A DNA stretch of 30,661 nucleotides, from assembly GCA_014730235.1 (NCBI GenBank), contig WJIO01000252.1, forward strand, positions 1-30,661, in the 5' to 3' direction. The position numbers were made by a program, and so were the translations under genes. Shown here one piece after another: positions 9,416 to 24,346 of this stretch; positions within the stretch are counted from its first letter, which is position 1; each line of letters starts with the position of its first letter. Below the pieces are notes generated by a model. That model had not been told where the DNA came from and searched no databases. It saw nothing but the letters and a program-made list of their open reading frames with translations. This stretch comes from Candidatus Poribacteria bacterium. GTDB lineage: Bacteria > Poribacteria > DTPJ01 > WJIO01.

Positions 9416-9471
9416 ATTCTAACAAATTTTATTTTTTAAGTCAAGGACAAAATTTGACGGTTGTCGCATAA
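9416..9471 (-). promoter_or_regulatory. Sigma-70/A promoter with upstream TTATGC box (site 1)
   Basis: On the minus strand: -35 TTGACT at 9444-9439, a 17-base spacer, -10 TAGAAT at 9421-9416. A TTATGC box at 9471-9466 lies 21 bases upstream of the -35, and AAATTTTGTCC abuts it. The same layout occurs at 12748-12802, 24259-24313 and, less perfectly, 21185-21240. It would drive the deacetylase, HEPN and MNT genes. The rest of 9472-9668 holds no gene that I can see. Confidence 0.7.
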
Positions 9472-9668
9472 TTTTTAAAGGTAACATCACAGATCTCTAT
9501 ATTTACCTTTTCTTATCATAATTTTTACCATATCCTCACCGAAAAGCCCACAATTTGCATGAAGAAAATGAAGCTTCTTGACACTTATGCAATTTAGAAA
9601 AAGCCAGCCATCTTGTTAAAATCCAGTGGCTTGACCCCAGATAAACCACATTTAGCCATGTAATTGGA

Positions 9669-12600
9669 TCAAAGGACATTTACCCTCAGACCTTCATAAT
9701 CTACCTGAAAATCAAAAAACCTGGCCCGATTGTTGGGGGGATTTTCTATCAATATTTTTCTGATCTTCTCCGATTTCTTTGCCCCTTTAGTCACTATAAA
9801 CAAAAATCCGCCGCCGCCGGCTCCCAGTAACTTGGCCCCATATATCAAATCTTCTATCCTATCAAATATGGCTTCAATATCGCCGTTGCTGGTACCAGGG
9901 TCCAGGGCCTTGTTTAACTCCCATACCCGGGATATATTTTCCCCAAAGCTTTCTATATCCCTGGCGTCAAGCTGTTCTTTCATTTCCATGGATATTTGTT
10001 TTAGTTGGTGGATAGTCTTTATCACATTTGGCTCCCGGTCAAGATACCCACCAACGATATTCTGCAATATATTCTTGGCTGTGCGCCGCATGCCTGTGTA
10101 GTAGAGCAAAAACCTTTTACCCGTATTATCATCATTACAGACTAAATCCGTCCAGGAAATTAGGGGGTTCTGATAATATCCGGGTTGAGTGCTGATAAGT
10201 TTTACCCCGCCTATAACTCCCCCCACCTGATCCTGCCACCCGCCTCCGGTGGTCATCAACTGCTCCATATACATAGTACGGTTAAAAAGTTCAACCTGGG
10301 TCAATTCCCGGTCAAACATCCGGGATAAACAGGCTATTACAGCCGAACCTAAAATACTGCTGGTTCCCAGTCCCGATCCGGCAGGAACTGCGCTGAAGGT
10401 TGTCAATTCAATACCACAACCTATCTCAGCAAGTATATCTTCCAGACGACAACCTATATCTTCAGGGATAACTCCAGATGCCACAAAGGCAGCCTTGGGA
10501 AGACATTGCCAGTTACCCGGGTTCTGACACGACAACATTTCGTCCATCTGGTATACCACAGCCTGCTGGCTCAGGTCAATTGAGTTGATCTTAATAGCTC
10601 TATCTTTACAGCATTTACCTATGGCTTGTATGGGATATTGACCGTTTAGCTTTACCGACGCATTTAACACATTGCCGCCGTATTCCAGACAATAAGGTGG
10701 GGTATCGGACCAACCGCCGGCAAAATCCAGCCTGGATGGTACACAGACCCATACTACCTCGTCGGAGCGTATACTCATTTTTTGCGATGTGTAGCCCAGA
10801 TCCAGGCCGGTTTTTACGGCTTTCCGAACAGAATCAAAGGCCATGCTTTCATATTCCTGGGCCGAAGATAGGCCCACAAAATCAGTCTCAGGTGAAGACT
10901 TTATTATACTGCCTAAAAGCTTATATAAACGTCCTTTTAAGATCAGATCACCTGTATTATCTACTTTATGCAAAATCCTCCCGGCGGCTTTCAGGTAATC
11001 CTGAGGGTTTTTACACCAGAAAAGTATATCTTCCGTCGGTATCTCCTTTTCTGAAACCACAATATCATCCAGTTTTTCCAGATTTGTCCTTTCAATGATC
11101 CTGATACGACTTTCCCACAAGCGGCTGTAATCCACAGACGAGAGAACCTGGGACATGGAAATACGCTCAGAACTTAACCATCCCTGTGTTATCCCATCCT
11201 GCAATTCCAGAACCAGAGATAGGGTTTCATCCAGGTCATGGCTGACAGGAAATAACCAGGCCTCCCATATATCATGTATATCATGTGATTTGCCTTTGTC
11301 CCATAGTTCATCAATTTTTACCCCTTTATCTCCTATCCAATCCCTGAGCGGCTGATTCATAAAAGTTGTCCCATCTTCCAGATCACCCTTGAAGCTGTCT
11401 TTTACACCGTATATCAACGAAACCCAATTCCCTTTACCCACTGGTATACACGACAGACAAGTATCCCTCTTGAGCTTCAAAGGCTCATCGCATCCGATCA
11501 CACCTGTAACAATATTACCCCCTTTCAGGGAAATATCCCTCAGGTCGCAGCCCTCAATAATGCACATACCGCCAATTTCATACTTGCTACCGGTGAGGTT
11601 GGTGTTGTATACAAAGGCCTTCCTGAAATTCTCAAAATCACTTACATTGGTTCGGGTGAAATTTTGAAAATTATATGCCGAACTGGTATAGCTGGTGGTA
11701 TGAAACTCCTGTAGAAATTGTTGACTTGTGCCCAGGTGAAAGAACTCGCAGTATGACAGGACACAAACATGATAGGGTATCCTCCTCAGAACATCCCAAA
11801 GGCCTCTATCATGAAAATTGCCATTCTTACCCAGCAGCATAAAGGGTATCTCCCGGTAGATGTCCAGTTCCGCTTCGCCCTTCATTATTCCTTCGCATAA
11901 ACTTCCCGCTTTCAGACAGGGTTTTCCATTCCCTAGGTATACCCCTGAACCATGTAGCAAAGCGGATATTGAATCCAGGTTGAAGTTTATAATCCCTGTA
12001 TCCACCAGGGCTTTACCGGCAATATCAACGGAGCTTTTAAGTTCATCAGGGGATGGTTTCTGCAAAAAATCCATCACTTCCCGAAGGTTATCACCCCACT
12101 TCCTGTGTTCTGTTATGTAAACACCGTGTCTTGAGGCCACATCCACAGCACCCGGATAGGCAACCCCTGTTATTCCGGAATGAGAAAAAACTAGTTCATT
12201 ATTATTATAGCTCAACAGCACATCCCCGGATGCTATAACCATCTGTCCTTTATCCTGTATGGGAAGTCGGATCAAATTCTCCAGGATCAGGTCAAACAGG
12301 GCAACAGGACGATCAAATTCTCGCTCCACCGGCAGCGGTATAAACACCTTGCCAAAGGGCGAATAGGCCGGCAGCCTTTTACTGTCTCCCCCGGAGTGTA
12401 ATATCCATATTCTTTTACCCACAAAAGCGTCTTCAATTGAGTCAAAGTTATCATCCCGACAGAAATCCTCCAGCAACCTGTAAAGGGTGTAGATGGTGCT
12501 GCCGCCGGAACCAACCCGCCGTCCTTTAGGGTCGTGGATTACATGAAAATCAAAGTCCGGCGGCAAATATCCCCTCTCTTTGCGCCACTGAATCTGTCTT

Positions 12601-12674
12601 TTATATCCATCAGCTTGATACTCATTGGCGGCTGTGATTACAAATATATCCCTTTTGATAAATGATGAATTCAT
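9669..12674 (-). CDS. fkp: Bifunctional fucokinase / L-fucose-1-phosphate guanylyltransferase (Fkp type)
   Basis: At 1001 residues this matches the length and architecture of Bacteroides Fkp and plant FKGP. The N-terminal pyrophosphorylase half carries HDPKGRRVGSGGSTIYTLY (about 47-65) and the HSGGDSKRLPAYSPFGK segment (about 93-109). The C-terminal GHMP kinase has PSRLDFAGGWSDTPP (646-660), PAGSGLGTSS (764-773) and LLGAGGGG (949-956). Together these convert L-fucose to fucose-1-phosphate and then GDP-fucose, a salvage route that feeds fucosylated surface glycans. D-arabinose is an alternative substrate in this family. It stands alone on the minus strand, with its own promoter at 12748-12776 and divergent to xdhC. 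No fucosyltransferase is visible in the window. Confidence 0.92.
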   Translation of the reverse strand: MNSSFIKRDIFVITAANEYQADGYKRQIQWRKERGYLPPDFDFHVIHDPKGRRVGSGGSTIYTLYRLLEDFCRDDNFDSIEDAFVGKRIWILHSGGDSKRLPAYSPFGKVFIPLPVEREFDRPVALFDLILENLIRLPIQDKGQMVIASGDVLLSYNNNELVFSHSGITGVAYPGAVDVASRHGVYITEHRKWGDNLREVMDFLQKPSPDELKSSVDIAGKALVDTGIINFNLDSISALLHGSGVYLGNGKPCLKAGSLCEGIMKGEAELDIYREIPFMLLGKNGNFHDRGLWDVLRRIPYHVCVLSYCEFFHLGTSQQFLQEFHTTSYTSSAYNFQNFTRTNVSDFENFRKAFVYNTNLTGSKYEIGGMCIIEGCDLRDISLKGGNIVTGVIGCDEPLKLKRDTCLSCIPVGKGNWVSLIYGVKDSFKGDLEDGTTFMNQPLRDWIGDKGVKIDELWDKGKSHDIHDIWEAWLFPVSHDLDETLSLVLELQDGITQGWLSSERISMSQVLSSVDYSRLWESRIRIIERTNLEKLDDIVVSEKEIPTEDILFWCKNPQDYLKAAGRILHKVDNTGDLILKGRLYKLLGSIIKSSPETDFVGLSSAQEYESMAFDSVRKAVKTGLDLGYTSQKMSIRSDEVVWVCVPSRLDFAGGWSDTPPYCLEYGGNVLNASVKLNGQYPIQAIGKCCKDRAIKINSIDLSQQAVVYQMDEMLSCQNPGNWQCLPKAAFVASGVIPEDIGCRLEDILAEIGCGIELTTFSAVPAGSGLGTSSILGSAVIACLSRMFDRELTQVELFNRTMYMEQLMTTGGGWQDQVGGVIGGVKLISTQPGYYQNPLISWTDLVCNDDNTGKRFLLYYTGMRRTAKNILQNIVGGYLDREPNVIKTIHQLKQISMEMKEQLDARDIESFGENISRVWELNKALDPGTSNGDIEAIFDRIEDLIYGAKLLGAGGGGFLFIVTKGAKKSEKIRKILIENPPNNRARFFDFQVDYEGLRVNVL

Positions 12675-12747
12675 GTTTCTTTTATCCTCGTTGCTTAATT
12701 CTAAATATATACTTTTTGGTTCGGTTCTACCGCACTATATATTGGCA

Positions 12748-12802
12748 ATTCTAAAAAATGCATCCCTTTAAGTCAAGGACTAAATTTACCCATCAGGCAT
12801 AA
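12748..12802 (-). promoter_or_regulatory. Promoter of the fucokinase gene with upstream TTATGC box (site 2)
   Basis: On the minus strand: TTATGC at 12802-12797, 20 bases, -35 TTGACT at 12776-12771, a 17-base spacer, -10 TAGAAT at 12753-12748. AAATTTAGTCC abuts the -35 exactly as in site 1. The transcript would start about 70 bases before the fucokinase ATG. Confidence 0.75.
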
Positions 12803-12825
12803 ATTGCAAAATGACAAACAAAATA

Positions 12826-12854
12826 TTGATTTTTATGCTTTTGTTCTGTTATAC
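12826..12854 (+). promoter_or_regulatory. Promoter of the xdhC operon
   Basis: TTGATT (12826-12831), a 17-base spacer and TTATAC (12849-12854) lie 44 bases before the ATG at 12899. A second TTATGC (12833-12838) falls within the spacer and is inverted relative to the box of site 2, so one regulator could touch both divergent promoters. Confidence 0.65.
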
Positions 12855-12898
12855 TAGACTAATATTGATAATAGGTCATCTACATAGGGGTAAGAAGA

Positions 12899-13942
12899 AT
12901 GAAAAACATCTATATAAAGCTGGCAGAGAAACTCAATAATAATTCTCTTGCTCTTGCTACAGTTATTGAAAAGCGAGGTTCAGCACCTCAAATTCCAGGG
13001 TCTTCAGCTCTGTTTTCCTCCAAGAGGTTACTCACAGGTACTGTGGGCGGTGGTCTTTTAGAGGTTAATACCCAGAAGAGAGCATATCGTGCACTACATA
13101 AGAAGACCTCAATTATTTATAAATTCAGTTTGACTGCCGACATATCTTCATCGGAGGAACCAATATGCGGCGGAGAAGCCACCATCCTGATAGATGGGTG
13201 TCCGCAAGACCATATAGAAATATTTCAGGATATTGCCGACTCCATGGATAAAAGGCAGCCAGGTGTTTTATTAACACATATAACAAAGACCGAAGTAGAT
13301 GCTTCCCTTGATCGCTATTGGATAGAAGCTGAAGGAAAAGAAAAGAATGCTGTTTTTGTCAAATTCCGTGAAGAAATCAGTAATTCTTTGCTGAGTAAAA
13401 AACCGGAGCTGATCAAGACAAAGGAGGATGAGCTTATATTTCTGGAACCTATATACCCCCTACCGAATTTGATTATAGCCGGTGCAGGACATATCGGTCA
13501 GGCTCTATCCCATCTGGCAAGACTTCTGGATTTTGAGGTTACAGTTATAGACGACAGGTGGGAATTTGCCAATAAAGACAGATTCCCTGAAGCACATAAT
13601 ATCATCGTAGATGACATTGGAAGGGCTATGGCATCTGTTGAAATATATCCTGACTCATATATAGTTATAGTTACCAGAGATCATAAGAACGACGCCGATG
13701 CCCTCAGGCAATGCATAGATTCTGAAGCGGCTTATGTGGGTATGATAGGCAGCAAACGAAAGATAGAGCTTATGAGGGAGAAATTCCTACAGGAGGGCTG
13801 GGCTACCCCTGATCAATGGGAGCAGGTTTATGCCCCCATTGGTATTGATATTCATTCCAAGACAGTGCAGGAGATCGCCATCAGCATAGCCGCCCAGCTT
13901 GTACTGATACGTCGGCAGATAAACTCAGGGGAAAAACTATGA
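12899..13942 (+). CDS. xdhC: XdhC-family molybdenum hydroxylase maturation factor
   Basis: This 347-residue protein has the XdhC/CoxI N-terminal motifs ATVIEKRGSAP (20-30), GTVGGGLLE and CGGEATILID. A C-terminal Rossmann domain follows, with IAGAGHIGQALSHLARLL, VIDDR, GMIGSKRK and the conserved end motif IGIDIHSKTVQEIAISIAAQL. XdhC proteins bind molybdenum cofactor, promote its sulfuration and deliver it to xanthine-dehydrogenase-type enzymes. It is the first gene of a four-gene plus-strand operon, with AGGGG eight bases before the ATG. It overlaps the next gene in an ATGA junction, consistent with translational coupling. Its target is almost certainly the IorB-like subunit at 15011. Confidence 0.92.
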   Translation: MKNIYIKLAEKLNNNSLALATVIEKRGSAPQIPGSSALFSSKRLLTGTVGGGLLEVNTQKRAYRALHKKTSIIYKFSLTADISSSEEPICGGEATILIDGCPQDHIEIFQDIADSMDKRQPGVLLTHITKTEVDASLDRYWIEAEGKEKNAVFVKFREEISNSLLSKKPELIKTKEDELIFLEPIYPLPNLIIAGAGHIGQALSHLARLLDFEVTVIDDRWEFANKDRFPEAHNIIVDDIGRAMASVEIYPDSYIVIVTRDHKNDADALRQCIDSEAAYVGMIGSKRKIELMREKFLQEGWATPDQWEQVYAPIGIDIHSKTVQEIAISIAAQLVLIRRQINSGEKL

Positions 13943-14526
13943 TCAGTGCCGTTATACTGGCAGCCGGGGAATCCAGAAGGATGGGCGGAATAAAACTCCT
14001 TCTTCCCTTCGGCGAGAAGACAATAATTGAGACAGTAGCGGATAGTGCTTTGCAATCAAAATTAGATAATGTATTGGTAATTCTTGGTTCCAGTGCTAAA
14101 AAGATAAGTGAAAAGATCAGGGATATGCCTGTGGAAATTTCTGTTAATCCGAATTTCAGCCGGGGGATGCTTTCGTCGATCCTGTGGGGATTTCGACATT
14201 TGCCCGATAGTACAGATGCAGTTTTGATTATGCTTGGGGATCAACCTATGGTTTCCAGTTCGGTAATTGATGCAATAATTAATGGCTACAGCGAAACAGA
14301 AAAAGGTATTATTTTGCCTGTATACAACAAAAAACGAGGGCACCCGGTTCTTATTGATGTGAAATACAGTGATGATCTGAAAAGACTTGATCCCGAAAAG
14401 GGTTTGCGGGAACTTATGCACAAATATACCGGAGACATAATGGAAGTCCATGTGAATACCCCCACAATTCTCAGAGATATAGATACACCGGAGGACTACA
14501 GCGAGGAGATCAAATACCGGAGGTAA
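13939..14526 (+). CDS. mocA: MocA/MobA-like molybdenum cofactor nucleotidyltransferase
   Basis: This 195-residue protein is a compact nucleotidyltransferase with LAAGESRRMGGIK (7-19) for nucleotide binding, GDQPM (100-104) for metal binding, RGHPV, and the C-terminal DIDTPEDY motif. This set is typical of MocA, which adds CMP to molybdopterin for xanthine-dehydrogenase-family enzymes, rather than MobA, which adds GMP. It overlaps xdhC by four bases (ATGA) and is followed eight bases later by the iron-sulfur subunit gene. The choice of MocA over MobA rests on context and general resemblance. Confidence 0.85.
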   Translation: MISAVILAAGESRRMGGIKLLLPFGEKTIIETVADSALQSKLDNVLVILGSSAKKISEKIRDMPVEISVNPNFSRGMLSSILWGFRHLPDSTDAVLIMLGDQPMVSSSVIDAIINGYSETEKGIILPVYNKKRGHPVLIDVKYSDDLKRLDPEKGLRELMHKYTGDIMEVHVNTPTILRDIDTPEDYSEEIKYRR

Positions 14527-14534
14527 ATGTAAAA

Positions 14535-15008
14535 ATGGAAACTATTAATTTTCAACTTAATGATAAACCTGTAGAAATAACAATAGATGATGCGCGGATG
14601 CTATTGTGGGTACTACGGACTGATCTGGAACTTACAGGAACCAGGTTCGGATGCGGAGAGGGTATCTGCGGGGCCTGCACCGTCCTGGTGGATAATTATC
14701 CTGTCCGATCGTGTCAGTTCCCGGCTGTAAACGCCGATGGAAAGGAAATTGTAACAATTGAAGGATTGGCTAAGAACGGAGAACTTCACCCACTGCAAAA
14801 GGCATTTATGAGCCATGATGCTCTGCAATGTGGGTTTTGCACATCGGGGATGATCCTCACCGCCTACAGCCTGTTGCTGGATAATCCTGAACCCACAAGG
14901 GAAGAGATCATTGAAGGGATGGAGGACAATCTGTGCAGGTGCGGCTCTTACGGCAGGATAATAAAGGCCGTCCAGACTGCCGCTCAAGAAATGAAGGAGG
15001 CGCGATAG
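14535..15008 (+). CDS. [2Fe-2S] subunit of a molybdenum hydroxylase (IorA/CoxS-like)
   Basis: At 157 residues this is the standard small electron-transfer subunit. The plant-type cluster ligands are C40, C45, C48 and C60 (CGEGICGAC, then SC). The second cluster uses C99, C102, C134 and C136 (CGFC and NLCRCG). It passes electrons from the molybdenum site to an outside acceptor. GGAGGT lies about 12 bases upstream of the ATG. The large subunit follows two bases after its stop. No FAD subunit is present, as in two-subunit isoquinoline 1-oxidoreductase and related aldehyde dehydrogenases. Confidence 0.92.
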   Translation: METINFQLNDKPVEITIDDARMLLWVLRTDLELTGTRFGCGEGICGACTVLVDNYPVRSCQFPAVNADGKEIVTIEGLAKNGELHPLQKAFMSHDALQCGFCTSGMILTAYSLLLDNPEPTREEIIEGMEDNLCRCGSYGRIIKAVQTAAQEMKEAR

Positions 15009-15010
15009 AT

Positions 15011-17134
15011 ATGAAAGAGAAGGAATATTTGGACCTTGATTTTAGTGATATAAAAACTCCTTTTACCCTTAATCGTCGGGAATTTATCAAAGCTGTCGGC
15101 GGTGGGATATTTATTTTTCTCACCATAGGTGATCCCCTCGATGCCGAAGCACAGAGACGTGGTGGACGATTGCCTACAGATTTTAACGCTTTCCTTCAGA
15201 TAAAGGAAGATGGCAGAGTAAACTGCTTTACCGGTAAGATCGAAATGGGCCAGGGTGTCATAAACTCTATACCCCAGTCCCTGGCTGACGAACTGGACGT
15301 GCCGCTGGATTCGGTTGATATGGTTATGGGAGATACGGACCTGTGTCCCTGGGATATGGGTACTTTTGGCTCCATGACCACCCGGTTCTTTGTGCCGCCC
15401 CTCAGGGAAGCTGCCGCCGAAGCCAGAGCTGTCCTGATAGAACTGGCGGCTGAACGTTTGGAATTGCCAGTCGAAAAGTTAAGAACAGAGGGCGGCGCGG
15501 TTATTGAAAAAAACAACAGCAAAAATCGGGTGACCTACGCTCAATTGACAGAAGGGAAACGCATCGAAAGACATCTGGAGGAAAAGCCCCCGGTAAAGGA
15601 TTTCTTGGAATTTAAGATAGTCGGCAAACCTGTCTTGCGTCGGGATTCACTGGAAAAAGTCACCGGTGAAGCCAAGTTTGCAGGGGATATTCGTCTACCT
15701 GGTATGCTGTATGCAAAAATTCTGAGACCACCGGCTTATGGGGCAAGGTTGAAGAGCGTGGACACCTCCGCTGCGGAAAAAATTGAAGGTGTAAAGGTTG
15801 TCAGGGACGGTGACCTTGTTGCTGTTTTACATACACTGCCTGATGTTGCTGAAAAGGCAGTATCAAAAATCAAAGCTGATTATGATCTGCCGGAAAGCGA
15901 TGTGGATGATAAGAGTATTTTCGATCATTTACTTAAGACTGCATCCGAGAGCAATATAGAAGCGAACGGCGGAGATCTTGAGGAAGGGAGAGAGCTATCC
16001 CATCATATCTTTGAAGAAAAATATCTGAACTCTTACGTCGCTCATGCCCCTATTGAAAACCATACAGCAATAGCCAATATTGAAGGGAATAAAGTGACGG
16101 TATGGGCATCCACTCAAGCACCTTTCAGGGTTAAGGATCAGGTCGCAGAGGCCCTGGGCGTTTCTGCTGAAAATGTCCGCATTATTGCGCCATTTGTAGG
16201 TGGAGGGTTCGGCGGTAAAACCCGATGTCAGCAGGGAATAGAAGCAGCGCGTCTGGCAAAACTCACCGGGAAGCCCGTTCAGGTTGCATGGGGTCGCGCT
16301 GAGGAATTTTTATACGACACCTTTCGTCCTGCCGCAGTTGTAAAAATAACCTCGGGAATCACTGATGATGGCAAAATTTCTCTATGGGATTACGGTGTAT
16401 ATTACGCCGGCGGAAGGGGTTCCCAACAATTTTATGATATCCCCCATCACCGAACAATGACACATAGCGGTGGCTACCCCCACCCCTTTGGCACAGGGGC
16501 TTGGCGCGCACCCGCCAACAACACCAATACCTTTGCCCGAGAGTCACAGATCGACATCATGGCTGCCAAAGCAGGTATAGATCCCCTGGAATTTCGCCTG
16601 AAAAACCTGAAGAATAATCAGGTGATCAGGATACTAAAAGCCGCTGCGGATAAATTCGGCTGGACGCCAGCAAAAGGTCCAAGTGGCCGGGGGTACGGTA
16701 TAGCCTGTGGAACCGATGCGGGTACCTGGGTTGCACACATGGCCGAGGTGGAAGTAAATGATGACGGTCATGTTCAGGTAAAGCGCGTCGTATGCGCCCA
16801 GGACATGGGATTGGTAGTAAACCCTCAGGGGGCAAAATTGCAGGTGGAAGGTTGTATAATAATGGGTTTAGGGTATGCCCTGTCTGAGGAGGTTCATTTT
16901 AAAGGCGGGGAGATACTTGACACCAATTTCGATACATACCAAATCACACGCTTTTCCTGGACACCAGAGATCGAGACGGTGCTGATTGAATCGGATGCTC
17001 CGCCGCAAGGTGGTGGCGAACCGGCAATTATCTGCATGGGTGGTGTAATAGCAAACGCAATTTTCGATGCAACTGGCGCTAGATTATATCAGCTACCCAT
17101 GACTCCTGATAGAATTATGCAGGCGCGCCGATAA
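15011..17134 (+). CDS. Molybdopterin-binding subunit of a xanthine-dehydrogenase-family enzyme (IorB-like), with Tat-type leader
   Basis: The start is the ATG at 15011, with AAGGAGG ten bases upstream; the frame is open further left only because it runs through the small-subunit gene. The 707-residue protein begins with a Tat-like leader (NRREFIKAVGGGIFIFLTIG, 21-40), suggesting export or membrane attachment. EMGQGV, FVGGGFGGKT and GTGAWRAP are molybdopterin-contact motifs, and GGGEPA near the C-terminus holds the probable catalytic glutamate (about E670). These enzymes hydroxylate N-heterocycles or oxidise aldehydes; the substrate cannot be told. It completes the operon with its own XdhC and MocA-like factors. 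A MITE lies 40 bases downstream. Confidence 0.9.
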   Translation: MKEKEYLDLDFSDIKTPFTLNRREFIKAVGGGIFIFLTIGDPLDAEAQRRGGRLPTDFNAFLQIKEDGRVNCFTGKIEMGQGVINSIPQSLADELDVPLDSVDMVMGDTDLCPWDMGTFGSMTTRFFVPPLREAAAEARAVLIELAAERLELPVEKLRTEGGAVIEKNNSKNRVTYAQLTEGKRIERHLEEKPPVKDFLEFKIVGKPVLRRDSLEKVTGEAKFAGDIRLPGMLYAKILRPPAYGARLKSVDTSAAEKIEGVKVVRDGDLVAVLHTLPDVAEKAVSKIKADYDLPESDVDDKSIFDHLLKTASESNIEANGGDLEEGRELSHHIFEEKYLNSYVAHAPIENHTAIANIEGNKVTVWASTQAPFRVKDQVAEALGVSAENVRIIAPFVGGGFGGKTRCQQGIEAARLAKLTGKPVQVAWGRAEEFLYDTFRPAAVVKITSGITDDGKISLWDYGVYYAGGRGSQQFYDIPHHRTMTHSGGYPHPFGTGAWRAPANNTNTFARESQIDIMAAKAGIDPLEFRLKNLKNNQVIRILKAAADKFGWTPAKGPSGRGYGIACGTDAGTWVAHMAEVEVNDDGHVQVKRVVCAQDMGLVVNPQGAKLQVEGCIIMGLGYALSEEVHFKGGEILDTNFDTYQITRFSWTPEIETVLIESDAPPQGGGEPAIICMGGVIANAIFDATGARLYQLPMTPDRIMQARR

Positions 17135-17166
17135 CGAGCCAGAGCTAAATCTCTCAAAGAAAGGTA

Positions 17167-17322
17167 TTAAACTTGGCTCTTCCGGGTTCAGTGTGGTAAA
17201 GATAAGAAACTTTTTTATGCTGTCATTCCTGCTTCAAGCTTTTTAAAAAGCTTGAAGCAGGAATGACAAGCTGAGGGGATTTTCAATTATAACCACAGTA
17301 AACCCGGAAGAACCTTAAACTT
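17167..17322. mobile_element. 140-bp MITE (ISL3-like ends) with 8-bp target duplication
   Basis: The element spans 17175-17314. Its ends are inverted repeats matching at 20 of 23 bases: the left begins GGCTCTTCCGGGTT and the right, inverted, begins GGTTCTTCCGGGTT. It is flanked by an exact 8-bp direct repeat, TTAAACTT (17167-17174 and 17315-17322). There is no coding sequence, so it is non-autonomous. GG-[CT]-TCTTCC ends and 8-bp duplications fit the ISL3 family from general knowledge. It lies between the molybdenum operon and the heparinase-like gene. The intact duplication suggests fairly recent insertion. Confidence 0.88.
17221..17268. repeat. Perfect 48-bp palindrome inside the MITE
   Basis: The two 24-base halves (17221-17244 and 17245-17268) are exact inverted complements with no loop base; the left half begins TGTCATTCCTGCTTCAAGC. 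As RNA it would form a very strong hairpin from either strand, so it could end or stabilise transcripts of the operon upstream. Confidence 0.95.
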
Positions 17323-17356
17323 ATTGAGTTTGATCTCAGTGTAGAAGGAAAATTAC

Positions 17357-19621
17357 ATGAACAGATGGGTGAAGGATATTGACTCCAATTGGAAAAACGC
17401 GCGGCCACGATTGTTTTTTACCTCCAAAAGAATAGAGAGGTTTCGCGATCATATCAAGCGACAAGGGAAGTTGAGGGAGGCGTGGTTAAAACTGATACAA
17501 CGGGCGGAGGGCTTACTTGAAGCGGAGTTTGTCCCGGAGGAATACGCGGAGAAAGGAAGCGGACAGCATGGAAACTACGGCAGGCCAAGCTCACAGGTAC
17601 GGGATATAGGCGGAACCCTTGGCTTGGTCTATCATATAACCGGTGATAAACGTTATGCCGAAAAACTCCAGGAAACTCTATTCTATTACGGCAATTACAG
17701 ACGATGGTGCGGCTTGCAGTTTACTACATGGGATCCACCCTGGCACTCAGAGCTTAACACCGCCAGGTTCTGCTATGGATACGCCGTAGGATACGACTGT
17801 ATATATGACTTCCTCTCGCCAGAAGATAGAGTCAGGATCGGTGATTCCATGATTCGTCTGGGCATCTTACCAACACTGGAAGACTGGTTGCTCCCGGAAA
17901 ATCGCGTTCATGCCCTGGATTCCATGGGACATAATTGGTGGAGTGTATGCGTTGCTATGGCAGGATTGGCTGTACTCTCGATCCTGGGGGATGAACCCCG
18001 GGCGAAGGGCTGGATATCCCGGATTTCCCGGGGGTTCTCCCAATGGTTCTATTATGAGGGTAATGTCCTTCAGAGCAAACCGAAGAACTTTGACCGTGAG
18101 GGCGCATTCTATGAGTCGGTTAACTACACAAACTATGCGCTGTCCGAGTATCTGTTATATCGACTTGCCTGGGTAAATACCTTCCCTGACTCATCGCCGC
18201 CCCGTATTGATCTGCTGGATAAAGCAGGGGGGTTCTTCCTCCATACATGCTATCCCACTTCAGATGGCCTGCTATCGGTAAATTTCGGGGATAGCGGCGT
18301 TGAATCAGACGGTTCAAGAACAATAAGTATGCTGCTGGCCAACGGATATGATAACGAGCAATATAGATGGTACCTGGAACGAACCCATCCGGACCTGCGG
18401 GATCCGGTTGCGCTGGTTTACTGCGAACCGGAAGCCGAAGTCTCTTCGCCGAAGGATTGGCCAAGATCGGTTATATATACTGATATAGGGTGGGGGAGCA
18501 TGCGATCCTCGTGGGAGGATGACGCCACCTTTCTGGCGGTGAAGTCCGGGTTTACCTGGAACCACGCCCACGCTGACGCCGGTTCGTTTATACTCCTTCA
18601 TAAAGGAAAACCGCTGATTATAGATTCCGGAAGTTGTTCCTATAGCCGTCCTGAGTATACCCGATACTACTGTCAGAGTCAGGCTCATAACGTGATTTTG
18701 TTTAATGGCCAGGGCCAAAGCCGGGAGGACATTCCCAGAGGTGTAAAGACTTCTGGAACGTTGCACCACTTGATGGATATGGACGGACTCAAATACATAT
18801 TTGCCGATGCTACCGGTCCTATGTCACATCATCTTTCCCGTAATTATCGTCATTTTCTATGGCTCGGTGGTGTTATACTTGTTATTGATGACCTGCGCGC
18901 TCACTCCGAAGGGAGATTCGATTGGCTACTGCACTACGAAGGCGAGGCGCAAATTCACGATTCCAAAATTTGCCTGGATAACGGTCAGGCTAAGGCCATT
19001 ATCCATACCATGTTTCCCGAAGCGTCCATCATAGTTGAAAAAGAGGGGTTAAAAGACCATAGGCCCAATGAAAAAACAAGCTATTTTTCCCTCCAGACCC
19101 GGGGAAATGTTCGGGATATGAAGTTTATAACCGCTATCGTACCTGGAGAAAAAGACGCAAATATGCCTTATATAGAGGGGATCCAGTCATCCGAGATGAT
19201 AGGTGTGCGGATCCATGAAAATGGCATGGTGAGTGATGTATATCTGAACCTACGAGCCGACGGCAGACGTATGCACCGCAACAGCAACAACTCCTTCTTT
19301 GGCTGGGAAACTGATGCATATCTCATGGCTACTACCCGGCTGAAGGACGGGGATGAAAAGGATCCTGATTCAGTCTTACGCTATTTTGTGGCCTGTGGCA
19401 GTTATCTGCGTAGGGACAAAAGGGTAATACTGGATTCGCTGTCAAAGGTCTACGCCGCCTGCACTATGGGTCAGAGTGAAATGGATATAATACTGCAGGG
19501 ACAGCCACTGATGGAAGTGGAATTAGGGGTTCCCCAAAAACCAGAAAAGGTTAGGCTCAATTGTCAGAACGTGGACGTTGACTATAACGACGCGACCAAA
19601 TCCGTAAAATTGACCGTATAG
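17357..19621 (+). CDS. Heparinase II/III-like polysaccharide lyase
   Basis: This 754-residue protein has an N-terminal all-helical toroid and a C-terminal beta-sandwich, as in heparinase II/III, alginate and chondroitin lyases. Likely active-site motifs are GHNWW (H192, N193), FYESVNY (251-257) and NHAHADAGSF (402-411), the last being the signature of the heparinase II/III C-terminal domain; QSQAHNVILF follows. It would cleave uronate-containing chains by beta-elimination. There is no signal peptide: the protein begins MNRWVKDIDSNWKNARPRLFF, so it probably acts on imported oligosaccharides in the cytosol. AGAAGGA lies nine bases before the ATG. It is convergent with the arylsulfotransferase-family gene. 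The substrate is not determinable. Confidence 0.87.
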   Translation: MNRWVKDIDSNWKNARPRLFFTSKRIERFRDHIKRQGKLREAWLKLIQRAEGLLEAEFVPEEYAEKGSGQHGNYGRPSSQVRDIGGTLGLVYHITGDKRYAEKLQETLFYYGNYRRWCGLQFTTWDPPWHSELNTARFCYGYAVGYDCIYDFLSPEDRVRIGDSMIRLGILPTLEDWLLPENRVHALDSMGHNWWSVCVAMAGLAVLSILGDEPRAKGWISRISRGFSQWFYYEGNVLQSKPKNFDREGAFYESVNYTNYALSEYLLYRLAWVNTFPDSSPPRIDLLDKAGGFFLHTCYPTSDGLLSVNFGDSGVESDGSRTISMLLANGYDNEQYRWYLERTHPDLRDPVALVYCEPEAEVSSPKDWPRSVIYTDIGWGSMRSSWEDDATFLAVKSGFTWNHAHADAGSFILLHKGKPLIIDSGSCSYSRPEYTRYYCQSQAHNVILFNGQGQSREDIPRGVKTSGTLHHLMDMDGLKYIFADATGPMSHHLSRNYRHFLWLGGVILVIDDLRAHSEGRFDWLLHYEGEAQIHDSKICLDNGQAKAIIHTMFPEASIIVEKEGLKDHRPNEKTSYFSLQTRGNVRDMKFITAIVPGEKDANMPYIEGIQSSEMIGVRIHENGMVSDVYLNLRADGRRMHRNSNNSFFGWETDAYLMATTRLKDGDEKDPDSVLRYFVACGSYLRRDKRVILDSLSKVYAACTMGQSEMDIILQGQPLMEVELGVPQKPEKVRLNCQNVDVDYNDATKSVKLTV

Positions 19622-19657
19622 GTATGGCATCCCTCTTTCCTTCACCCAGTTGGATAC

Positions 19658-19816
19658 CTAGAGTTGAGTGTCCTTAGCTGCCTTGTCGTCGCCCCAGAAG
19701 AATAGCGCATCTGGGATCTGACCGTCCTCCGGCGGCATAGTATAGATCACGGGCTGCTCGCCCTGTAAAAACAGGGCGCTTGTATGCGGGTATCCATGTA
19801 TATCCAATGCTGACGT
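19658..19816 (-). pseudogene. Possible 3' remnant of an unidentified protein gene
   Basis: Downstream of the arylsulfotransferase gene, a minus-strand frame between stops reads TSALDIHGYPHTSALFLQGE, then QPVIYTMPPEDGQIPDALFF and WGDDKAAKDTQL. The composition is strongly protein-like, and GYPHTSALFLQGEQPVIYTM looks like one blade of a sialidase/BNR-type propeller. There is no good start; a TTG at about codon 4 has no ribosome-binding site. A different frame over the same bases is also open but reads less naturally. I take this as a C-terminal fragment of a lost gene, at low confidence. Confidence 0.35.
19759..19778. repeat. Small inverted repeat (8-bp stems) between convergent genes
   Basis: CGCCCTGT, AAAA, ACAGGGCG forms a stable stem-loop between the convergent heparinase-like and arylsulfotransferase genes. 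No T-run follows on either strand, so it is not a textbook terminator, and it may simply be part of the remnant reading frame. Confidence 0.4.
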
Positions 19817-19859
19817 TTAAGGAAACACCCGGAATCAGGGTAAAAACAAATTTCATATT

Positions 19860-21080
19860 TCATTTGGTTCCTGAGGACTGATATAGGCGAATTAGCTCCG
19901 GATAGGTCTGTATTCGTCTTCCATCTCTGTCAACTTCACCGATAATACGGTCTTTTCGGGCCTCCAACAGTGGTTTCACGTATTCCGGGGAATATCGGGT
20001 TGCGCGATGTATCCGTTTTCCCAGATGCTGCCGCCCCTGACCGACATAAGGGGAGTAAAAATCCCATACTATCTCCTTTTCGGGGGTTACTTCAAACAGG
20101 TGCCCCGCGTCACATTCACAGATAAGGGTGTTTCCGTTAGGAAGCCTCTGATTCCCTGAGCGAAAAGGTGAGAAAAAATCCCCTACGTTCTCATATTCCC
20201 ACACAATATCCCCGGAAACAGGTTCGATCTCCCGGACAATTGAATATCCGCGATATGTGCCATTGTCAAAGACCAGTATATTTCCGTTGTCCAGCATGGT
20301 AGGTTGATGCTGCCCATCCAGAATGCCGGGTCCATAGTACCATACTATGGCGTCTTTATCCACGTCAATTATACCGATGGTATCCATATGTCTCAGGCTG
20401 AAGAGTATATTACCCGCTTTGAATCGCGGGTCTTTCTTTCCCAGCGGTGTATCCGGCAGAATTTCAACTGTGTTAGCGTGGGCCCAGTCCGACGGTCCAT
20501 AGGGCACAAAATCCCCGGTATCCGTCTTTCTCATATAGGGTATAGGTATGGGGTATCCCGCTAGTTCGCATAATTCCTCTACATGGTCGCTCAGGGAAAA
20601 TTCCCAGACAACCTCTTTCTTTTTGTTGATCCTGAGGAAAACATCTGTCCTCATGTGATCAGGTTCGGTATCGGGAACGTAAAATCCATCCATCACCGGT
20701 TCATTCATGGCACCGAGTGAGATTATATCATCCGCGCTTGCCCGGTAAAAATCATGGTGATTGGGTGCTGTCAGTGTGTCGTCGCCTTCCCATCTCCATA
20801 TTATTTCACTGTCCGGGCTGATCTCTTCCAGCCAGCTTCCACAGTTATGCGTAAAAAGGTTGCCGTTGGGTAGAATCTCCGCCACGTTGCTGTGAGTTAC
20901 TTGCCATCGATGAACCAACAACCCCCGCATATCGATCAAATACTCAGTATCATCCCAGCACGGTGAAAAAAGCGTGTATCCGGAGTAACACTTTTCAGGG
21001 ACATACTTCCGCACCCCGAAAAGTCCCGGATCAAGGCGCATCTTCTCACCGGCTGTCACAAGTTTCCCGTCAATATACAT
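19860..21080 (-). CDS. Arylsulfotransferase (ASST)-family beta-propeller protein
   Basis: This 406-residue protein consists of repeated propeller blades: GYTLFSPCWDDTEYLIDMRG, ILPNGNLFTHNCGSWLEEIS, IIDVDKDAIVWYYG, MLDNGNILVFDNGTYRGYS, LPNGNTLICECDAGHLFEVT. This is the pattern of the Arylsulfotran PF05935/PF14269 families. Characterised ASSTs move sulfate between phenolic donors and acceptors in the periplasm. This one has no signal peptide (MYIDGKLVTAGEKMRLDPGL), so either it acts in the cytosol or its role differs. GAGGG lies seven bases before the ATG. A promoter with the TTATGC box lies about 130 bases upstream. Sulfotransferase activity is inferred from family only. Confidence 0.75.
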   Translation of the reverse strand: MYIDGKLVTAGEKMRLDPGLFGVRKYVPEKCYSGYTLFSPCWDDTEYLIDMRGLLVHRWQVTHSNVAEILPNGNLFTHNCGSWLEEISPDSEIIWRWEGDDTLTAPNHHDFYRASADDIISLGAMNEPVMDGFYVPDTEPDHMRTDVFLRINKKKEVVWEFSLSDHVEELCELAGYPIPIPYMRKTDTGDFVPYGPSDWAHANTVEILPDTPLGKKDPRFKAGNILFSLRHMDTIGIIDVDKDAIVWYYGPGILDGQHQPTMLDNGNILVFDNGTYRGYSIVREIEPVSGDIVWEYENVGDFFSPFRSGNQRLPNGNTLICECDAGHLFEVTPEKEIVWDFYSPYVGQGRQHLGKRIHRATRYSPEYVKPLLEARKDRIIGEVDRDGRRIQTYPELIRLYQSSGTK

Positions 21081-21184
21081 TATTTTCCCTCACAGGTAGA
21101 TGTTATTAAAAGAAGTGCAGCAGTATAATTCACAAAACCATCCCCTAATTTCCCAATAGTTTTACATCATAATACAATACAGCA

Positions 21185-21240
21185 AATATTAATAGCTTCG
21201 TGGATTCTGATAAGACTAATTTAACAGAATGTTAGCATAA
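21185..21240 (-). promoter_or_regulatory. Putative promoter of the arylsulfotransferase gene with TTATGC box (site 4, weaker)
   Basis: On the minus strand: TTATGC at 21240-21235, 21 bases, -35-like TTATCA at 21213-21208, a 17-base spacer, -10-like AATATT at 21190-21185. AAATTAGTC abuts the -35, echoing AAATTTAGTCC at sites 1 and 2. The -35 and -10 are poor matches, so it may need an activator. Confidence 0.45.
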
Positions 21241-23215: not shown

Positions 23216-24016
23216 CTACTTACCTGTTTCCAACCAAAAAACCAGGGCCTGTTCCCAATTTTTGATATTGCCATCCTGAACCACTGCAACGTATTGTTCT
23301 TCTGAGGCTACCAGCGCTCCTTTAGTTATCTCTTTACCAGCCACAGTCGGTATAACCCTGTATCCCGCTTTTCTTATAAGACCAGCCCTTCGCCATGCCC
23401 TGTCAACATCGTTGATATCTATTACATTAGATATCTCCATGGCTAACAATATATCCGGCGAATCAGTTATATCTCTGGATTTTCCCCTTAAGATCAAATC
23501 CAGACGGAACACATCCTTGAATTCGCTCTTTGTCAATGCGGATTCAAGGGAATCTTCTATTGATGTCAGACGTAAAACCTTTATACGTCTGAGAATATGT
23601 CCCAGATAACCATAAGCCTTATCACGATACTCAATCTCCAGCATAGAGCCTTTCATATCACCTATATCGTCAATTACTTTGTCAAATCTTTCAGTAAGAA
23701 TACCCATTTTAACCGCTAATTCGTTTAACCTTTGTTCAGTTATTTTCTGGGCTTCCGCTAATTCATCTATCCTTTGTTCAGTTCTTCTCTGGGCTTCCGC
23801 TAATTCAGCAATTCTTTCTTCAGTTTTTCTTTGAGCTTCTACTAATCTGTCTATCCTCTCTTCTGTTCGGTCTTGAGAATCAGCTAATTTCCTGACGATC
23901 TCAGGAAGAGATAATAGATCTTGAGACAGTAAAAGCCCTCTTAGCTCGGACTTCCATTCTGGATGTTCGATCAGCAGTTGTACCAGGTCATGATAATCAT
24001 CAACAGTAAAACTCAT
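23216..24016 (-). CDS. Coiled-coil PD-(D/E)XK-like protein (DUF3782-type), middle gene of the HEPN/MNT module
   Basis: The start is the ATG at 24016, overlapping the HEPN stop (ATGA) with GGAG seven bases upstream, giving 266 residues. The N-terminal SFTVDDYHDLVQLLIEHPEW is followed by four 14-residue repeats of the type RTEERIDELAEAQR (50-105), a long coiled coil. The C-terminal domain (about 125-266) has D173 (RLDLILRG), E194 (LAMEIS) and the helix INDVDRAWRRAGLIRKAGYR with IPTVAGKE, a pattern seen in restriction-endonuclease-like proteins; serine stands where the usual motif has lysine. Nuclease activity is therefore uncertain. It sits between a truncated HEPN gene and an MNT stub. A deleted paralogue occupies the same place at 7753-7833. 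Confidence 0.75.
   Translation of the reverse strand: MSFTVDDYHDLVQLLIEHPEWKSELRGLLLSQDLLSLPEIVRKLADSQDRTEERIDRLVEAQRKTEERIAELAEAQRRTEQRIDELAEAQKITEQRLNELAVKMGILTERFDKVIDDIGDMKGSMLEIEYRDKAYGYLGHILRRIKVLRLTSIEDSLESALTKSEFKDVFRLDLILRGKSRDITDSPDILLAMEISNVIDINDVDRAWRRAGLIRKAGYRVIPTVAGKEITKGALVASEEQYVAVVQDGNIKNWEQALVFWLETGK
23702..23869. repeat. Four tandem 42-bp repeats encoding the coiled coil
   Basis: Residues 50-105 of the gene at 23216-24016 are four 14-residue units (two heptads each). At DNA level the two middle copies are very similar (GGGCTTCCGCTAATTCA recurs 42 bases apart, and CTTTGTTCAG also recurs). Such in-frame repeats can gain or lose units. Confidence 0.8.
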
Positions 24017-24240
24017 ACTCCAACTCCACATTCGCTGTGTATCATTAAGCTATTTTCCCTTGTAATAAATTTCTGAGTAAAGCTCAAAATATCATTGGCA
24101 TATTCTATATCCTGCTGACTCTGTAATAAACCATAATGTTTAAAAGAAGTATTATCCGATTCCAATAATATATCAGGAACGATAATATTTCTGGCAGTCT
24201 TAAATATATTAATATTCCTGAATATTAAGTCTTCTGGCAT
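24013..24240 (-). pseudogene. Truncated HEPN gene (C-terminal half only), locus B
   Basis: From an ATG at 24240 the frame gives 75 residues. Its second half, SFKHYGLLQSQQDIEYANDI, aligns with the HEPN at 7842-8234 (PFEHYGPLQSHKAIEYVQEI). Where the intact protein has the RYPNGH motif, this one has DILLES, so the RNase residues are gone, and the N-terminal helices are missing. No ribosome-binding site precedes the ATG, and a promoter lies only about 20 bases upstream, giving a nearly leaderless transcript. It could still be translated and serve to couple translation into the overlapping nuclease gene. Confidence 0.7.
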
Positions 24241-24258
24241 TAATTCATCATTAATGTG

Positions 24259-24313
24259 ATTCTAGCAAATACATATTATTAAGTCAAGATCACAGTTCGA
24301 CTTCCAAGCATAA
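24259..24313 (-). promoter_or_regulatory. Promoter of the locus B module with upstream TTATGC box (site 3)
   Basis: On the minus strand: TTATGC at 24313-24308, 20 bases, -35 TTGACT at 24287-24282, a 17-base spacer, -10 TAGAAT at 24264-24259. Core elements and spacing equal those of site 2. The predicted transcript start (about 24252) is some 12 bases before the ATG of the truncated HEPN. Confidence 0.72.
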
Positions 24314-24346
24314 ATTTTATGTTCGGATAAAGAAACAGAATTCCCT

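Follow-up and report, generated by a model that had tools for sequence, protein, structure and literature searches.

Fixed-distance boxes upstream of sigma70 promoters in a poribacterial genome very probably mark the ends of promoter-targeting insertion sequences and MITEs

The hexamer TTATGC, found at a fixed distance upstream of the -35 of several predicted promoters, is part of a longer sequence, TTATGCTTGG. This sequence very probably forms the outer tip of the terminal inverted repeats of an insertion sequence (IS) of the Mutator-like ISKra4/ISLre2 type and of its non-autonomous MITE relatives, which insert at promoters. What looked like a promoter design comes from the way a transposon selects its target sites and not from a regulon; an insertion leaves the tip and a target-site duplication at a fixed distance to the -35. 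The window, that is the whole stretch of DNA analysed (30,661 nt), is contig C184 of a genome of 5.53 Mb in 451 contigs. All promoters are consensus predictions only.

A motif longer than the hexamer

The sequence-only reading of the window described four sites that share a promoter layout, and the four stretches are as it gave them. TTATGC, 20 or 21 bases, TTGACT, 17 bases and TAGAAT are present at three (9416–9471, 12748–12802 and 24259–24313), and the fourth (21185–21240) shares the box and spacing, with weak core elements. Its claim that the fixed spacing is beyond chance is true genome-wide, whereas within the window alone the pattern is at chance level: the box plus TTGACT with up to two mismatches is seen 4 times versus 2.8 expected. 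The genome-wide scan it proposed is positive, TTATGC-N20/21-TTGAC-N18-TANAAT giving 13 exact matches versus 0 for the reversed pattern and TTATGC-N18..23-TTGAC giving 98 versus 13. When TTATGC-to-TTGAC distances are tallied over 1.16 Mb of sampled sequence, the histogram has its maximum at precisely 20 bp, with 37 occurrences versus about 1–2 at distant spacings.

Most matches extend to TTATGCTTGG, which has 191 copies genome-wide versus 10 for the control; the exact 18-bp tip occurs 66 times in the genome versus 0. Common hexamers lying by chance near AT-rich promoters would account for the window-only count and for the poor match of 9471 and 21240 to the tip. For the family this explanation is refuted by the 13 versus 0 and 191 versus 10 genome-wide and by the sharp distance peak, and its probability is close to nil; chance stays likely for 21185–21240 and possible for 9416–9471.

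A promoter element common to several species was also considered and rejected, as a contig scan gave seven single matches in unrelated taxa, about the chance level.

Element ends, MITE copies and an intact insertion sequence

Many TTATGCTTGG copies form outward-facing pairs, 160–300 bp apart, with related, palindrome-rich DNA inside. The 9 bp directly outside both boxes are alike: in 1.57 Mb, 34 of the 57 pairs agree at 7 or more of the 9 positions, 21 of them perfectly. Since 9-bp target-site duplications adjoin both boxes, the box is taken as the end of a mobile element, and a regulator binding site was dropped as the main reading for the same reason. Pairing and promoter statistics come from a 1.16–1.57 Mb sample partly selected for containing sites, so that they give only rough genome-wide fractions.

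The short non-coding copies (163–356 bp, and others of 23 bp) have 9-bp duplications and CCAAGCATAAA ends in common with the IS, as MITEs do. Bare 23-bp mini-copies with a duplication are found on contigs C93 (9/9) and C337 (8/9), and C106 carries a variant bare copy with an extra CCAAGCA. As in other bacterial MITEs, the copies are short, lack an open reading frame, carry the ends of an autonomous IS, are flanked by target duplications and contain nested palindromes; they differ in being placed base-precisely relative to promoters. The IS transposases would move the MITEs in trans.

An intact 1.5-kb IS is present at G000:C354. Its terminal bases are 22/22 identical, it is flanked by a perfect 9-bp duplication, ACAAATCGG, and it encodes a 442-aa transposase. 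The terminal repeats begin with CC, in agreement with the ISKra4 group (18–39 bp, terminal C), and the 9-bp duplication, perfect here and in 21 MITE copies, agrees with the 8–9 bp of that group. No clear promoter is seen at 16 bp from this IS. A second IS type, known from broken ends only, has repeats nearer to the MITE repeats.

The best family for the C354 transposase is ISKra4 with 152.9 bits, below the NCBIfam equivalog cut-off of 205; ISLre2 gives 144.5 bits (cut-off 200). The catalytic motifs DLDG, GDGA and DYYH align with relatives, which includes the two Asp residues and the C/D(2)H signature 11–19 aa after the second. The third catalytic residue is Asp in both ISKra4-type transposases of this genome (SADKAG and SVDKAG; Table 1) and Glu in 10 aligned relatives, including ISCasp2. 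Because the Glu expected at the third position is replaced, the element is filed only as ISKra4/ISLre2-type and not as canonical ISKra4.

Promoter-targeting transposons are already known. TnGBS/ISLre2 elements and members of the ISKra4 group choose sites 15–17 bp ahead of a sigmaA -35 and duplicate 8–9 bp there, the promoter lying on either side when both repeats are nearly identical, and the transposase has been proposed to contact the transcription initiation complex (Guerillot et al., 2014; PMC3942029). The present case fits this published rule closely. With the ISKra4 group (p-MULT 4; ISKra4, ISCasp2) it has in common the position about 16 bp upstream of a sigmaA -35 and the 8–9 bp duplications (PMC3942029), near-perfect terminal repeats starting with C, the ability of either end to face the promoter, and the best family model. 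It differs in that the transposase is only 22–30% identical to named plasmid relatives and under the curated cut-off, the third catalytic residue is Asp and not Glu, most of the copies are MITEs, and the host phylum is apparently not among the phyla listed in PMC3942029. The TnGBS conjugative elements and the ISLre2 family (p-MULT 3) likewise insert 15–17 bp upstream of the -35 and have a related transposase (144.5 bits), but TnGBS are conjugative elements of large size, the orientation of insertion is always the same in both, and they are found mainly in Firmicutes. No paper on ISKra4-group MITEs was found in the literature searched. The MITE expansion, the 23-bp mini-copies with target duplications and the Asp replacing the catalytic Glu are mildly new here.

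Distance to promoters and the meaning of the fixed spacing

Of the 34 duplication-proven copies, 24 have a sigma70 promoter 15–17 bp beyond one of their two tips, the distance being 16 bp in nearly every case; no copy has a promoter beyond both. The ISKra4 group is characterized by a sigmaA promoter 13–17 bp from the repeat end in >20% of insertions, with which the 24/34 at 15–17 bp agrees. For the remaining 10 of the 34, no promoter reaches the threshold at 15–17 bp; some have one at 14 or 22 bp and a few have none. A promoter is found at exactly 16 bp for 53 of 182 tips, distant spacings having about one each. Contigs mostly chosen regardless of full tips (0.30 Mb) contain 9 tips, one with a promoter at 15–17 bp.

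What stays constant is the distance to the -35; the -35/-10 spacer ranges between 16 and 18, and the position of transposase action on the promoter is set by the -35, not the -10. The 16 bp consist of the 9-bp duplication and 7 bp without strong consensus. Since the 9 bp beside the tip are a target-site duplication, the promoter is outside the mobile unit. Many duplications have remained perfect, which makes the insertions young, and the promoters were therefore probably there beforehand as targets. ISKra4-like elements elsewhere in the phylum, whose GGGTGTGTAAA ends are unrelated, lie at 16 bp at five loci and at 15 bp at two (Table 1).

In the proposed mechanism, promoter-bound RNA polymerase or the -35 region probably guides the transposase to a sigma70 promoter that is already there. 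The element would be joined 16 bp ahead of its -35, and the 9 bp beside the element, about -52 to -44, would be duplicated. Each insertion would produce the order tip, 9-bp duplication, 7 bp, TTGACA, 17 bp, TATAAT.

One regulon or a spreading promoter cassette had been suggested from the window. As to the cassette, something does spread, namely the transposon end, but the promoter itself is not mobile, as the duplication adjoins the tip. Box, spacer, -35 and -10 travelling as one would fit the recurrence of the combination at many loci, and 9416 and 12748 do have a copied promoter in common. However, that copy is local and unique, the box-to-35 sequence is not conserved, and the first 9 bp after the box are the duplication found at the other side of the element, which places the promoter outside the mobile unit and makes this explanation highly improbable.

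The regulon found no support, as the downstream functions are unrelated and the 18-bp tip is absent from every other one of the phylum's 84 genomes. The genes behind proven copies include those for a glycosyltransferase, HAD hydrolases, an aldo/keto reductase, a sigma54-type regulator, a CNNM transporter, lectin-like proteins and an aminotransferase, among others, and form no recognisable regulon. Neither coherent targets nor conservation of the site in relatives, the marks of a host-factor regulon, is seen. TTATGCTTGG might still be a host activator site at about -62, or an unusual upstream promoter element, if randomly placed insertions with the right spacing had been selected. The very tight spacing, the activator-like position, the bare palindromes at promoters, and an inner tip at exactly 16 bp in C106, C191 and C353 despite a second partial tip nearer the -35 would fit such a site. 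Class I activator sites (CRP-like, about -61.5) have a similar position upstream of the -35, but the box here is flanked by transposon target duplications, has no helical-phase series and precedes unrelated targets; the histogram of the 1.16-Mb sample has no additional peak at 30–31 bp as for class I activators. The insertions are young, often with perfect duplications, and most of the proven ones lie at promoters, so selection would have to purge nearly all others, and the unrelated ISKra4-like ends keep the same distance. An activator site is thus very unlikely.

Tandem tips, with a second partial TTATGCTTGG nearer the -35, are found at C106:7552–7591, C191:8655–8681 and C353:2739–2780 (G000). 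Even so, these loci keep exactly 16 bp between the inner tip and the -35, and they may represent repeated insertion at one hot spot.

A box at a fixed spacing upstream of the -35 would usually be taken for a regulator site; the boxes described here were left behind by a promoter-recognising transposon, and motif searches in such genomes will therefore report false regulons. The MITE copies provide a dense natural map, with dozens of sites in this single genome, of Mutator-like transposase action on sigma70 promoters. It is conceivable, though unlikely, that MITEs aimed at promoters, the smallest of them 23-bp palindromes, have placed the same cis-element at about -62 of perhaps at least 70 unrelated promoters, that the tip influences transcription, and that the target rule of a transposon is thereby giving rise to a new promoter element or regulon in this one lineage.

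Another recurrent promoter is found in family f3 of the phylum (L097, L098, L101–L106). It displays the palindrome ATGCTAAA-WW-TTTAGCAT upstream of TTGACA and GCTAAAAT at the -10, and resembles a conserved operator.

The four sites in the window

Table 1. Coordinates of the window sites and of ISKra4-type elements in this and other genomes of the phylum; fractions are matches to the 17-bp tip consensus
Feature	Position	Strand	Remarks
Bare 23-bp palindrome CCGAACATAAAATTTATGCTTGG	24304..24326	-	promoter-side tip 24304–24320, 17/17; other half 15/17
AAGTCGAAC, expected place of the 9-bp duplication	24295..24303	-	
-35 TTGACT	24282..24287	-	16 bp outside the tip
-10 TAGAAT of the targeted promoter	24259..24264	-	
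Open reading frame behind the tip-bearing promoter	23216..24031	-	271 aa; no confident Pfam family
Fucose salvage gene promoter, TTATGCCTGA box	12748..12802	-	13/17; -35 12771–12776, -10 12748–12753
Promoter before deacetylase/HEPN/MNT genes, TTATGCGACA box	9416..9471	-	12/17; -35 9439–9444, -10 9416–9421
TTATGC with weak core elements	21185..21240	-	11/17
Own-genome ISKra4-type transposases, Asp at third catalytic position	L221 5195–6523; L048 1533–1796		
GGGTGTGTAAA-ended ISKra4-like IS, other genomes of the phylum	L245, L250, L256, L257, L262, L263, L265		15–16 bp upstream of -35

The match to the tip consensus is complete at 24313 and falls from 12802 through 9471 to 21240 (Table 1). On these scores, 24313 is the only clear member of the genome-wide family among the four. 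The palindrome at 24304–24326 is a mini-copy or remnant of a MITE. A second AAGTCGAAC copy was not found on its far side; the copy would have arisen by the same insertion route, with a duplication that is not recognisable. Target duplications were likewise sought at the other window sites. None was found for 12802 or 21240, and the sole match for 9471, with two mismatches, overlaps the box itself. The 21185–21240 box is probably due to chance.

The sites at 9416–9471 and 12748–12802 show homology along about 70 bp, which runs from AAATTT past the -35 and -10 into the leader. The AAATTT-x-GTC noted earlier as common to three sites is real but local, as the 20-mer AAATTTNGTCCTTGACTTAA across the -35 is exact in the whole genome only at 9436–9455 and 12768–12787. 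The pair looks like a local promoter duplication before two consecutive genes on the same (minus) strand, and the two boxes may be one decayed tip copied along with it, or chance.

A 50-bp decayed element at 12793–12842, with both ends at 13/17, was rejected since its flanks do not match. A nested palindromic repeat without TTATGCTTGG tips is situated at 17175–17314. It has 23-nt outer arms (87%) with a perfect 24+24-nt palindrome within, and its palindrome modules are also found inside the MITEs.
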